Shown here: positions 20 through 61,073 of the stretch, one piece after another
Position numbering within the stretch: the stretch's first letter is position 1
How the letters are laid out: the number at the start of each line of letters is the position of its first letter
Source of the DNA: Dethiobacter sp.
Lineage (GTDB): Bacteria; Bacillota; Dethiobacteria; Dethiobacterales; Dethiobacteraceae
Direction of reading: 5' to 3'
Assembly: GCA_018333635.1 (NCBI GenBank)
Contig: JAGXTL010000015.1
Coordinates: 1 to 64,000 of the forward strand
Length of the DNA stretch: 64,000 bases
Made by a program: the position numbers and the translations under genes
The notes under the pieces: generated by a model
What the model was told of the DNA's origin: nothing
The model's input: only the letters and a program-made list of their open reading frames with translations
Databases searched by the model: none

Positions 20-61
20 ACCACCCCGCCCTTGCGGGCACCCCTCCACGGGAGGGGAATT
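20..61 (+). repeat. Family A double-hairpin repeat, copy A1
   Basis: The element reads ACCACCCC, then a small hairpin GCCC-ttgc-GGGC, then CCCCTCC..GGAGGGG, ending in AATT. Eight more copies occur in the window. This one ends in the AATTTTTG tail also seen at 44521 and 53028. If it belongs to an inverted pair, its partner lies left of the window. Confidence 0.85.
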
Positions 62-105: not shown

Positions 106-561
106 AATTCCCCTCCCTTGGAGGGGTAGTGCGAAGCGCCGGGGTGGTCATTCCAAAGCGGGACAGCTTTTTAGCATCTCCATTACACCATCTAGATTGT
201 TTAAGATGTCCTTCGCTTGGATGTGAATGACAATCAGACCCAGTCCGGACAGAAAAGAATCGCGCAGTGCGTCGTATTCAACTTTATCATTATGGGTGCT
301 GCCGTCAATTTCTAAAACAACGTTACGATTTGTGCAAAAAAAGTCCACAATAAAATCACCAATAACTTTCTGTCTGTCAAAATCAAAGCCCCTGAACTTA
401 CGGTTTTTCAATTGATTCCAGAGTAGAACCTCAGAGAGATTTCCAGCTTTACGCAGCTCTTGTGCCCTGTAACGCAGTTTGGGATTATAGGGCAAAGATA
501 AATAAGCTTTGGAATTACGACCACCCCGCCCTGACGGGCACCCCTCCAAAGGAGGGGAATT
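106..561. mobile_element. Candidate DUF559 cassette bounded by inverted family A repeats
   Basis: A 456-bp segment begins with AATTCCCCTCC (106) and ends with GGAGGGGAATT (561). Each end carries a full family A repeat: 106-148 is the GGCGC-type copy read toward the inside and 520-561 is the GCCC-type copy inverted. The GGTGGT/ACCACC ends face inward and the space between them is filled by a DUF559-family gene. The octamer ATTGATTG occurs at 96-103 and 559-566. This could be a footprint of insertion, but the right copy overlaps the repeat, so it is not a clean target-site duplication. That the segment is mobile is inference. Confidence 0.5.
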
Positions 562-585
562 GATTGAGGATTTATCATATTCCAC
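148..585 (-). CDS. DUF559-family endonuclease-like protein
   Basis: A 145-residue protein of the DUF559 family, which is related to Vsr-type and other PD-(D/E)XK nucleases. The core is visible: VIGDFIVDFFC (D77, D81), VVLEIDGSTH (E92, D94, H98) and a final helix of the DxxxxxLDGVMEML type. The start is GTG at 585 with GGAGGGG six bases upstream. Residues 9-22 (NSPPLEGCPSGRGG) are encoded by repeat copy A3, so the repeat is translated in frame. The stop codon at 148-150 touches repeat A2. No ATG lies between the repeat and the fold. A possible coupled 23-codon ORF (586-657, MQSNIQVIL..) ends directly before the GTG. The family's biological role is unknown. Association with repeats of this kind is something I recall from other genomes but cannot check here. 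Confidence 0.75.
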   Translation of the reverse strand: MEYDKSSINSPPLEGCPSGRGGRNSKAYLSLPYNPKLRYRAQELRKAGNLSEVLLWNQLKNRKFRGFDFDRQKVIGDFIVDFFCTNRNVVLEIDGSTHNDKVEYDALRDSFLSGLGLIVIHIQAKDILNNLDGVMEMLKSCPALE

Positions 586-2855: not shown

Positions 2856-2884
2856 ACTATATACGAAAACAGAAAATGATGCAA
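2856..2884 (-). promoter_or_regulatory. groES-groEL promoter
   Basis: On the minus strand TTGCAT (2884-2879), a 17-bp spacer and TATAGT (2861-2856). Transcription would begin near 2849, directly in front of CIRCE. Confidence 0.7.
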
Positions 2885-3012
2885 CTATGATGCCGGGAAT
2901 TATTTTGCAAATAATTACATTTATCCTTAATTAACTCAATATATCGCTTTTTTCCTTCTTCTCTCTAATTTTTCCTTTTCAACAGAAAATAGTATGCTCC
3001 CCTGACAAGATC

Positions 3013-3528
3013 TTATGCATCATTATTACGCAAATTTGCACACTCGCCGCTCTGTCCGCAAAGCACATCAAGCGCATGAGGGATGGCAGGCAGGACTACG
3101 CCCAGGTTTTCCCGTACTGCCCGGGGACTGCCTGGTAAGTTTACAATTAAAGTTCCGTTCCTAATTCCGCAGACGGCGCGGGAAAGCATGGCATGCGGTG
3201 TTTTTTGCAAGCCGAAGGCTCTCATTGCTTCCGCCATACCGGGAACCTGTTTTTCTATCACAGCCAAAGTGGCATCAGGCGTGTTGTCTCGCGGACTTAA
3301 CCCTGTTCCGCCTGTAGTCAGCACCAGGTGAAGCTGAGGCTCATCAGTGTACGACAACAATTTGTCACGCAAGACAGTAAACTCATCCGGCACCACCTCA
3401 TAAATGGCCACCCTGCCACCGGCGGCTTCCACCATTTCTCTAATCACAAGTCCGCTTTCATCCTGGCGTTCACCTCTGGCGCCTTTATCACTGGCAGTTA
3501 AAATAGCTACTCGAAATGACTGCATCAT
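3013..3528 (-). CDS. mog: MogA/MoaB-type molybdopterin adenylyltransferase
   Basis: A 171-residue protein of the MoaB/Mog family, which adenylylates molybdopterin before metal insertion. The motif TTGGTGLSPRDNTPDAT and the segment IVNLPGSPRAVREN are diagnostic. Three in-frame starts (TTG 3531, ATG 3528, ATG 3525) follow the upstream stop. AAGGAGAG at 3541-3534 favours one of the two ATGs. It is the last gene of a molybdenum-cofactor unit with two moeA genes. MoaB and Mog cannot be told apart firmly from sequence. Confidence 0.88.
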   Translation of the reverse strand: MMQSFRVAILTASDKGARGERQDESGLVIREMVEAAGGRVAIYEVVPDEFTVLRDKLLSYTDEPQLHLVLTTGGTGLSPRDNTPDATLAVIEKQVPGMAEAMRAFGLQKTPHAMLSRAVCGIRNGTLIVNLPGSPRAVRENLGVVLPAIPHALDVLCGQSGECANLRNNDA

Positions 3529-3531
3529 CAA

Positions 3532-5445
3532 TCACTCTCCTTGCCAGACAATTTCGCCTGTTATTTCAGTGTGATAGCCTCCAAGTTCTTTTACTGCCTG
3601 CTTAAATTGTGCAGAGCGGATCAGCTCCAGCAGTTTTTGCATGTTGTAATCAGTATAAAATTTGACGGGTATAGCTAAATCATAGCGTTCTTTGGCGAGC
3701 GGGATAAAATCAAGCCCCAGTGCCTGCGCCGCTGCAAAAACGCCAAGAGCAACATCGGCTGAACCGGCTGAAACTGCCGCCGCTACCGCCAAGTGAGTAT
3801 ATTCTTCTCGGTGATAGCCGTTGATAGCTTCCGGAAGAATGCCGTCTTTTCTCATGAGAGCGTCTAATAGCATCCTCGTCCCGGCTCCGCGCTGACGATT
3901 AACAAAAGTTACATCACCTCTAGCCAAATCGGCAATCCGGCTGATTCCCCGCGGATTGCCTGGCCTGACCATTAAGCCCTGCTCCCGTTCCACAAGCGTT
4001 ACAAGTACCAGCGGAACATCAGGGAGAAACTGCTGCAAAAAAGGAATATTATACTGGCCCGTTTCTTCATGCAACAAATGGATGCCTGCCAAATGCGCCT
4101 CGCCGCGCCGCAAAGACATCATGCCTCCAGTGCTGCCTACATGGGCAGACGACAAGGAAAACCCCGGATGGTGCCGACTCAGCAGGTCGCCCAAGATATC
4201 CAATGTTAAATCATGACTGCCGCTGCAGACTATCGTTTGCTCGATATTTTGCAGCGGACGCAGAAGTTCCACAGCCACCGTCTCACCGGCCACAAGCCCT
4301 TCCTTTTGTTGAGGGATACGAACAAACCCATCGGCTTTCACCAAGGAGGTTACTACGCCGGCTCCTCTTGCCAGGGGGATAGCCACATACCGCTCCTCCA
4401 CACAACCTACTTTGACACGAATCCACTCCTCCGCAGACAATGGGGAAGTGACCTGTCGGGAAAGGGAGGCCTGGAGCAGGAGCCTTTTTGGTTCTTGCTG
4501 ACCCTGGAGAGCATAGAGCAGGGGTTTGAGAAAAAGCTCTAGCGAGACTACCGCCGAAACCGGATAGCCCGGCACGCCTATTACCGGCTTGCCTGCCACA
4601 ACGGCTAAGATAACCGGCTTGCCCGGGCGAACAGCCACCCCATGGATTAGCACTTCTCCAAGCTGCGCCAACACGTCGGCAGTATAATCCCAACGCCCAG
4701 CGGAAGAACCCGCATTAACCAGCACCACATCACTTAGCATAGACGCGTTGAACACAGCCTCTTTTAGCAGCTCAAAATCATCGCGCACAATCTCATGTTT
4801 AATAGCCTCACCCCCCCATTCTGCCACTAAGGCAGAGAAGATGACGGAATTATATTCGATGATCTGGCCTGGATTAGGTTTTGTGCCGGCAGCAATTAAC
4901 TCGCTCCCGGTGGGGATAATAGTCACTTTGGGCTTCTGCCGTACTGCTACGCCTGTTTGCCCTCCGGCCAGCAGTGCGCCCGCGTCCACAGCGCCCAGGC
5001 GGTGACCGGACGGCAGCAACATTTCCGTGGCCACAATATCTTCGCCAATAGGGCGGACATGCTGCCAGGGAGCGACCGCCGCCACAATTTCAATTACTTC
5101 ACCTTGCTCGAAAATGTCCTCCGCCATAATTACCGCGTCACAGCCGGCGGGGAGCGCATTGCCTGTATCCACCGGAAAAGCCTCTCTCCCCAGATGCAAC
5201 CGCCTTGGAAAAGACTCGCTCGCTCCCTCCGTATCCGCCGCCCGCACAGCCACTCCGTCCATTGCCGCAGCATGGAAATGGGGCGAAGACATTTTAGCAA
5301 AGACGGCTTTCGCCGTCACTCTCCCCACTGCTGCCGCAACCGGTAGCATCTCTTCTCCTGTCAGGCCCCACTGGCGCTCAAGGAAAAGCTTCCTAGCGTC
5401 AGCGACAGGCGTATTATGTAAATAGCGTCTCCGTTTTTCTAACAA
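3532..5445 (-). CDS. MoeA molybdotransferase fused to a substrate-binding-like domain
   Basis: A 637-residue two-part protein. Residues 1 to about 405 are a full MoeA (AAMDGVAVRAADT, MAEDIFEQGEVIEI, VNAGSSAGRWDYTADVL, GVPGYPVSAVV), the enzyme that inserts molybdate into adenylylated molybdopterin. Residues from about 410 to the end form a periplasmic-binding-protein-like domain (VCSGSHDLTLDILGDLL, RQRGAGTRMLLDALM, ALGVFAAAQALGLDFIPLA). It has no signal peptide, so it should act in the cytoplasm. This architecture is known from Clostridia, and a role in ligand sensing is only inference. The start is a TTG at 5445 with GAGGTG seven bases upstream. A second stand-alone moeA lies 18 bases upstream. 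Confidence 0.92.
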   Translation of the reverse strand: MLEKRRRYLHNTPVADARKLFLERQWGLTGEEMLPVAAAVGRVTAKAVFAKMSSPHFHAAAMDGVAVRAADTEGASESFPRRLHLGREAFPVDTGNALPAGCDAVIMAEDIFEQGEVIEIVAAVAPWQHVRPIGEDIVATEMLLPSGHRLGAVDAGALLAGGQTGVAVRQKPKVTIIPTGSELIAAGTKPNPGQIIEYNSVIFSALVAEWGGEAIKHEIVRDDFELLKEAVFNASMLSDVVLVNAGSSAGRWDYTADVLAQLGEVLIHGVAVRPGKPVILAVVAGKPVIGVPGYPVSAVVSLELFLKPLLYALQGQQEPKRLLLQASLSRQVTSPLSAEEWIRVKVGCVEERYVAIPLARGAGVVTSLVKADGFVRIPQQKEGLVAGETVAVELLRPLQNIEQTIVCSGSHDLTLDILGDLLSRHHPGFSLSSAHVGSTGGMMSLRRGEAHLAGIHLLHEETGQYNIPFLQQFLPDVPLVLVTLVEREQGLMVRPGNPRGISRIADLARGDVTFVNRQRGAGTRMLLDALMRKDGILPEAINGYHREEYTHLAVAAAVSAGSADVALGVFAAAQALGLDFIPLAKERYDLAIPVKFYTDYNMQKLLELIRSAQFKQAVKELGGYHTEITGEIVWQGE

Positions 5446-44465: not shown

Positions 44466-44524
44466 ACCACCCCGCCCTTGCGACCACCCCGCCCTTGCGG
44501 GCACCCCTCCAGGGGAGGGGAATT
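44466..44524 (+). repeat. Family A repeat, copy A4, with 17-bp internal duplication
   Basis: ACCACCCCGCCCTTGCG appears twice with a 17-bp period (44466 and 44483) before the rest of the element and its AATTTTTGTAGCAGA tail. With repeat B it fills the convergent gap between pstB and the thioredoxin gene. Confidence 0.85.
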
Positions 44525-52360: not shown

Positions 52361-52396
52361 GCCCTCACCCTAACCCTCTCCCAGAGGGAGAGGGGA
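52361..52396 (+). repeat. Family C repeat
   Basis: Same sequence and orientation as the copy at 22602, placed 11 bp upstream of the hisS -35 box. Confidence 0.8.
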
Positions 52397-52406
52397 GATG
52401 ATGGCC

Positions 52407-52448
52407 ATTCCCCTCCCTTGGAGGGGTGGCGCGAAGCGCCGGGGTGGT
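52407..52448 (-). repeat. Family A repeat, copy A5 (solitary)
   Basis: ATTCCCCTCC..GGAGGGG-TGGCGCGAAGCGCC-GGGGTGGT, the GGCGC-arm type without an inverted partner nearby. Confidence 0.85.
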
Positions 52449-52768: not shown

Positions 52769-52861
52769 CAGCTGCTCCGCTCGCACGTTATCGCAGCTGC
52801 TAGTCGCGGTTTACTGATCGCTGCTTTCACCTAACGCTCGCTTCAGCATTCTGTGAAAGTC
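52769..52861 (-). repeat. Family E repeat, short form
   Basis: Read on the minus strand it matches the first 43 bp and last 31 bp of the element at 19394-19566 but lacks its central 90-bp hairpin. Confidence 0.7.
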
Positions 52862-52893
52862 TGCAATTCACTGAAAGAAAAGATTCTGAGAAT

Positions 52894-53031
52894 AATTCCC
52901 CTCCGGTGGAGGGGTGGCGCAAAGCGCCGGGGTGGTTACCTCCTGCACCCCTACAGGGGGACAGGTGATTTGTCCCACTCGTCCACACGACCACCCCGCC
53001 CTTGCGGGCACCCCTCCAGGGGAGGGGAATT
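52894..53031. repeat. Inverted pair of family A repeats (A6-A7) enclosing repeat B
   Basis: A6 (52894-52936, GGCGC-arm type) and A7 (52990-53031, GCCC-arm type) face each other with GGTGGT/ACCACC inward, the same layout as the DUF559 cassette. The 53-bp space holds the GGGACA repeat (52953-52978) and CTCGTCCACACG. AATT forms both outer ends. Confidence 0.8.
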
Positions 53032-60765: not shown

Positions 60766-60798
60766 TCCCCTCTCCAGAGAGAGGGTAAGGGTGAGGGT
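60766..60798 (-). repeat. Family C repeat, shortened
   Basis: TCCCCTCTCCAGAGAGAGGG, then TAAGGGTGAGGG. The central CTGGG of the other copies is missing. Confidence 0.75.
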
Positions 60799-60844
60799 AT
60801 GTGTAAAACACTTGGACAAGGGCTGCCGACAAGGGCGACAGAAC

Positions 60845-61033
60845 AATTCCCCTCCACTGGAGGGGTGCCCGTGAGGGCGGGGTGGTTACATGCCCCACAA
60901 AAGATTTGCAAAACAAAAAACCTCAAGAAGATTGAAATTTTAGCGGCAATAACCACCCCGGCGCTTTGCGCCACCCCTCCTTAGGAGAAAACCACCCCGG
61001 CGCTTTGCGCCACCCCTCCTTAGGAGGGGAATA
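60845..61033. repeat. Inverted pair of family A repeats (A8-A9) with 39-bp tandem duplication
   Basis: A8 (60845-60886) is the GCCC-arm type. A9 is the GGCGC-arm type and occurs as a truncated copy at 60952 and a full copy at 60991 (period 39 bp). GGTGGT/ACCACC ends face inward across a 65-bp spacer without a recognisable gene. Third locus with this inverted-pair layout. Confidence 0.8.
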
Positions 61034-61034
61034 A

Positions 61035-61073
61035 TCCCTCTGGGAGAGGGTAAGGGTGAGGGCAGGGTGAGGG
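61035..61073 (-). repeat. Family C repeat
   Basis: TCCCTCTGGGAGAGGGTAAG, then GGTGAGGGCAGGGTGAGGG. The last 9 bp (AGGGTGAGG) are duplicated. It abuts A9 directly. Confidence 0.75.

Follow-up and report, generated by a model that had tools for sequence, protein, structure and literature searches.

A DUF559 nuclease gene bounded by inverted double-hairpin repeats in Dethiobacter belongs to a probable family of mobile elements

The DUF559 unit and its repeats

Positions 106 to 561 of the window, the 64,000-nucleotide stretch of Dethiobacter sp. DNA analysed here, form a 456-bp segment that contains one DUF559 gene on the minus strand, bounded by two inverted double-hairpin repeats (Table 1). The outer arms of these repeats are 22 nt long and 95% complementary, and AATT lies at each outer border, as a preliminary description of this DNA had claimed when it placed a DUF559-like gene inside an inverted pair of family A repeats; we re-found both repeats and the open reading frame at the same positions. 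That the gene fills the space between the repeats was likewise confirmed: the stop codon (148–150) abuts the repeat at 106–147 (+), its last base being overlapped when the Q end is taken as 106–148, and residues 9–22 of the protein (NSPPLEGCPSGRGG) are translated from the repeat at 520–561. One pair in the second hairpin of this Q end has decayed, and the end was left unclassified by our script and assigned as Q by inspection. The element sits at the left end of the contig with only one flank visible, where the next genes are groEL and groES.

Table 1. Positions of the DUF559 unit and of hairpin repeats in the window (A, B: repeat families; G001, sister species; G002, a congener).
Feature	Position	Strand	Remarks
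Whole element	106..561	(-)	DUF559 gene with Q end on one side, P end on the other
DUF559 (PF04480) Vsr/EDxHD-type nuclease gene	148..585	(-)	145 aa; GTG start just beyond P end
P end, 5' side of gene	520..561	(-)	AATTCCCCTCC-TTT-GGAGGGG-TG-CCCG..GGGC-GGGGTGGT; codes residues 9–22
Q end, 3' side of gene	106..148	(+)	AATTCCCCTCC-CTT-GGAGGGG-TAGTGCGAAGCGCC-GGGGTGGT
Extra P-type unit beside element	20..61	(-)	Full unit at 21–56
P-type unit	44483..44523	(-)	Conserved in G001; truncated copy at ~44466–44482 absent from G001
Family B repeat (CCCTCACCCTAACCCTCTCCC hairpin)	52361..52396	(+)	In G001 and G002, repeats of this kind border a second DUF559 clade
Single Q-type unit	52406..52448	(+)	
Gene-less head-to-head Q-P pair, REPIN-like	52894..53030		Core 130 bp
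Gene-less head-to-head P-Q pair	60845..61031		Core 181 bp; truncated copy inside at ~60952
Seven full family A units outside the gene unit	21–56, 44484–44519, 52410–52447, 52898–52935, 52991–53026, 60849–60885, 60992–61028		

The DUF559 identity and Vsr-type core proposed earlier also held. In a Pfam search, the 145-residue protein matched DUF559 (PF04480) with an E value of 1.6e-28 and otherwise gave just a weak match to MTES_1575; neither an HUH motif nor the catalytic tyrosine of a Y1_Tnp domain was found by Pfam, and the predicted fold is Vsr-like. Residues R45, E52, W56, F82, E92, D94, G95, H98, and D105 were invariant in 30 diverse members of the family, and these include the conserved acidic and histidine residues of the Vsr-like core (E52, E92, D94, H98, and D105). 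Structure prediction (mean pLDDT 85; repeat-coded N-terminus disordered) gave a model that matched NGO0050 (3hrl) and the catalytic domain of I-Bth0305I (3r3p), and E. coli Vsr more weakly. A sequence profile also retrieved NGO0050 and I-Bth0305I, the latter with an E value of 7e-5. Among solved structures, these two proteins, the second of which is a homing endonuclease, are its nearest relatives. An earlier study assigned one DUF559 gene to the EDxHD homing family (PMC9403480).

Full family A units have the form AATTCCCCTCC-NNN-GGAGGGG-TG, then a second hairpin, then GGGGTGGT; the window and 38 stretches together yielded 67 of them once a spurious 68th regex hit had been set aside. Two variants of the second hairpin occur, P (GCCC..GGGC) and Q (GGYGC..GCRCC). 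Nine full units are present in the window, seven of them beyond the gene unit, together with truncated copies at ~44466 and ~60952; the earlier count of eight or more repeats elsewhere in the window thus holds when partial copies are included (seven full plus two truncated, or nine) and fails for full units only. The hairpin CCCCTCCNNNGGAGGGG has 80 exact matches in the 2.39-Mb genome compared with 0 occurrences of a reversed control pattern, and this difference, together with the pairing statistics that follow, indicates that family A hairpins are not chance sequences. Among close neighbour pairs, 18 of 27 were head-to-head with AATT outermost (binomial test versus 1/4, p = 6e-6), and every classifiable head-to-head pair (17 of 17) joined one P to one Q unit (p = 1.5e-5); tandem pairs were homotypic, either PP or QQ. 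Inverted palindrome pairs are over-represented, as for REPINs, and the window copies lie between the main open reading frames. Because the gene unit and the gene-less pairs have the same P and Q ends, the gene-less pairs look like short derivatives of one two-ended element.

The sequence of the second hairpin varies between genomes, and its stem is preserved. For 44 variants from across genomes, the mean stem was 4.48, compared with 3.69 when 3' halves were swapped between units of equal length (maximum 4.05 in 500 swaps). No clear target-site duplication was found around the units examined, which have AATT at both borders. A further outer sequence, TTTCCTGCTACAAAAATT, is common to many P ends (for example, to the right of 53026); the P end may extend past AATT, which leaves its precise outer limit uncertain. 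The share of units readable in all six frames (23 of 38, against 47% of shuffles) was not notable.

Pairing of DUF559 genes with hairpin repeats

The preliminary description had anticipated that DUF559 genes would be enriched for flanking repeats, and several comparisons agree. First, for relatives from ~10 phyla, the best inverted flank match beat all local controls at 28 of 37 loci, and an inverted-flank score of 16 was reached at 19 of these 37 loci compared with 0 of 1670 control positions. Second, in a Bacteroidia set that was picked and ranked by domain score, independent of flanks, scores of at least 14 were found for 55 of 87 DUF559 genes versus 18 of 2998 control positions, and scores of at least 16 for 41 of 87 versus 2 of 2998. 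The flanks consist of C-rich hairpins of several families. About one third of the Bacteroidia genes had no clear flanking inverted repeat, so the family may also have other members. Third, the expected N-terminus recurred, as many relatives have one resembling PPLEGC..GRGG, and the family A repeat was found in at least seven phyla. Metagenome assemblies supplied most of these loci, and the same pattern is seen in isolates, in single-contig genomes, and on a finished plasmid.

The type of repeat also matched the clade of nuclease. In a tree of 118 DUF559 domains (105 columns, with many weak forks), the window's clade received support of 100/100 and spans Bacillota, Melainabacteria, Chlorobiota, Bacteroidota, Cloacimonadota, Delongbacteria, and Nomurabacteria. 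A family A unit lay within 300 bp of the gene for 16 of 17 members of this clade, compared with 11 of 101 other DUF559 genes (p = 9e-12). In several other phyla, most of a genome's A hairpins are at the DUF559 unit (nearly all in G102 and G103, for example), which fits a joint arrival of repeat and gene. Genome-level correlations, which rest on few independent lineages, pointed the same way. Of 100 related genomes, the three that have an A-clade gene contain 80, 124, and 4 A hairpins; the others contain 0 or 1, except for 29 in one congener (G002, where no A-clade nuclease was detected in an assembly of 170 contigs that is 93% complete). For family B hairpins, each of the five highest counts (210, 155, 70, 43, and 26) came from a genome that has a strong DUF559 match; the p value for this association (3.5e-10) ignores phylogeny and, as the genomes are related, overstates their independence. 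The window genome has 155 family B hairpins, yet its sole DUF559 gene is of the A clade, and a B-flanked DUF559 gene is found in G001 and G002. More family B repeats lie in the window at ~60766–60797 and ~61035–61062.

Might another enzyme, such as a Y1/HUH transposase, move the repeats with DUF559 as cargo? Y1_Tnp genes are present (one weak match in the window genome and three in G001), and the gene-less pairs show that repeats can occur without the gene. However, an A or B hairpin was found in 0 of 7 Y1 loci examined, the related genome G003 lacks A repeats despite two strong Y1 genes, and G087 has A repeats with no Y1 gene found in its 66%-complete assembly. On the first two of these grounds, a Y1 transposase as the mover is not supported. 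Different repeat families across many phyla all pair with DUF559, moreover, and clade matches repeat type. We judge a passenger role for the nuclease to be quite improbable.

Differing locations and in-frame insertions

The location of the unit differs between sister species. Behind groEL, where the window genome carries the unit, the sister species G001 has a repeat but lacks a DUF559 gene, and both are missing from G002 and G003. The A-clade unit of G001 is located behind a spoIVB-like gene, where the window genome and G002 have a short intergenic stretch with no repeats, followed by a spo0A-like gene (both names come from sequence inspection). This comparison of orthologous loci, proposed as a check in the preliminary description, thus found the groEL-side unit missing from all three relatives and the site of the G001 unit empty in the window genome. 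Mobility of the unit is well supported by these sequence comparisons.

Other candidate empty sites were rejected. The interval 52801–53020 at the P-Q pair was compared with G001, which proved to have a deletion that leaves half a hairpin, and at 60766–61062 the insertion adjoins a family B repeat; neither yields a base-exact junction. In E. coli, the DUF559 gene ycjD lies between sapF and fabI with C-rich repeats downstream (L090, L100). A sapF-ycjD-fabI query was covered to at least 80% at one place in 3362 of 5426 genomes, and an efflux operon occupies the place in the ycjD-less strains that we inspected.

DUF559 copies at L027, L029, L033, L046, and L148 have internal stops or frame breaks and are probably decaying elements. 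In Neisseria gonorrhoeae (L091, ~2870–3560), a DUF559 gene lies between CCCTCTCCCTGTGGGA repeats that are direct, not inverted. In the single-contig genome G176 (L191–L199) there are 11 DUF559 matches, two of which form a near-identical tandem pair. Among the viral contigs searched, no relative was found; phage records gave two weaker matches.

In-frame insertion in conserved genes is a feature that the preliminary description did not foresee. Among ~155 Bacteroidia matches listed, ~53 are within reading frames of more than 300 aa, where embedded copies are in frame by definition. DUF559 with repeat-coded peptides on both sides occurs at two sites each in LeuRS, MetH, and RecG, and also inside RecJ and MutS; further hosts include acetyl-CoA synthetase, TsaB, HsdR, SpoIIE-type phosphatases, CoA-transferase, and others. 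Pfam confirmed in-frame insertion in 18 host proteins and listed no splicing domain in them, and the host open reading frames are continuous. Uninterrupted homologues were available for comparison: LeuRS matches came from 20 Bacteroidia genomes, nearly all of which gave no DUF559 hit, and in close LeuRS homologues residue 560 is joined to ~703 with none or few extra residues, in a junction loop that varies by a few residues. A finished Pseudanabaena galeata plasmid has, between brxC and pglZ, a pglX-like gene that contains a DUF559 domain along with an inverted repeat matching perfectly over 26 bp; the gene is uninterrupted in Aulosira laxa. Cyanobacterial plasmid DUF559 genes (L092, L093, L095, L096) adjoin methyltransferase-type genes (DUF1156, PglX). 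Rickettsia palindromic elements (RPEs) offer a parallel, as they too lie in frame within protein genes and are translated. RPEs are not known to carry a gene, whereas the element described here brings a nuclease domain along.

These insertions and the kinship with I-Bth0305I, in sequence and fold, bear on homing, in which DUF559 would cut uninterrupted alleles at fixed sites, recombination would copy the element in, and the hairpins would be accessory, for example as translation-neutral linkers. Insertion recurs at the same sites in leuS, metH, recJ, and hsdR, and some same-site elements are sisters in the tree (recJ and metH, for example). As free-standing homing endonucleases exist, the missing intron or intein alone does not exclude such a route. 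By contrast, sister nucleases also occupy different hosts (acs and leuS, 100/96; spoIIE-type and acs, 100/96) and different places (recG sites 1 and 2, 100/96; leuS and a free-standing gene, 100/98), intergenic copies exist, and homing leaves the 80 dispersed hairpins and the gene-less P-Q units with the same ends unexplained. One HsdR linker holds DUF559 elements of two unrelated clades (L187 versus L174 and L181). The element resembles I-Bth0305I in its nuclease domain and differs from it in having hairpin ends and gene-less dispersed copies, with no intron or intein found. As the overall explanation, we consider homing unlikely.

A nuclease that serves the host, either in Vsr-type repair or in a link with restriction, and around which repeats gather by chance, would account for the several DUF559 copies in or near methyltransferase genes. 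One study describes Caulobacter VsrA as a Vsr-like protein that contains DUF559 and works together with a cytosine methyltransferase, and adds that such linkage is not universal for Vsr-type nucleases (PMC12907096). Nevertheless, the repeats lie close against either side of the gene far more than at local controls, a repair gene is hard to reconcile with in-frame copies in leuS, metH, and recG, and the location differs between sister species, all of which make a host-serving role highly improbable.

A candidate mobile element family

We consider it probable that the unit belongs to a REPIN/RAYT-like family of mobile elements with an unrelated nuclease, in which 106–561 would be an autonomous copy and the gene-less P-Q pairs would be non-autonomous derivatives. 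RAYT genes are flanked by their own repeat, and REP sequences form inverted palindrome pairs in flavours that each have their own gene (PMC3116915). The element shares with that system a gene flanked by a repeat family dispersed through the genome, inverted pairs of short palindromes in intergenic DNA, and the pairing of each flavour with its own gene. The analogy with RAYTs drawn in the preliminary description is therefore sound in architecture (two-ended units, gene-less inverted pairs, and copy number that tracks the gene) and fails for the enzyme, which is of the PD-(D/E)XK/Vsr type, whereas RAYT is an HUH tyrosine enzyme. The double-hairpin ends of two distinct types and the insertions in frame in genes are also unlike REP/REPIN systems. 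An insertion sequence with its MITEs offers another parallel, with an autonomous copy and shorter derivatives that keep both terminal inverted repeats (here P and Q), but the element has no known transposase domain and no clear target duplication was seen.

From these sequence patterns we infer cleavage, a mechanism of insertion, and a causal role for the nuclease. The nuclease would recognise its own P/Q hairpin ends, probably when these are folded in single-stranded or cruciform DNA, and would nick or cut at the ends and/or at the target, acting in cis and on gene-less copies. The unit, whether released or copied, would then be joined to the break by host repair or recombination. Because the ends are readable in frame and the module is compact, insertions would survive in the surface loops of essential proteins, and homing through the cutting of empty alleles may contribute at re-used sites. 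The earlier proposal that the nuclease recognises, maintains, or moves the repeats thus stands for association and mobility, with cutting or moving by the nuclease itself as a putative step. More tentatively, and with somewhat less than even confidence, we suggest a new transposition system in which a small PD-(D/E)XK (EDxHD-type) nuclease mobilises hairpin-ended DNA and so gives rise both to the REP-like repeats without a RAYT that occur across many phyla and to unspliced in-frame insertions in essential genes.

In the open-access papers searched that mention DUF559, judged by passages or by title and abstract, no description of an arrangement of DUF559 with hairpin ends was found. CGTC-type REPs are widespread, often heterodimeric short palindromes reported without a dedicated transposase gene, and what spreads them has been stated outright as an open question (PMC3733652). 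Unlike those repeats, family A lacks the CGTC tag. DUF559, with its matching repeat types, is a concrete candidate enzyme family for the spread of REP-like repeats that lack a RAYT, and the element may account for the dispersal of a widespread class of bacterial repeats. A selfish module tolerated inside leuS, metH, recG, recJ, and mutS with no sign of splicing also bears on the origin of protein insertions. In annotation, repeat-coded peptides such as PPLEGCPSGRGG or NPSPKERG are to be read as element ends rather than as protein function. If it does act on hairpin ends, this compact nuclease would be a new tool to study.
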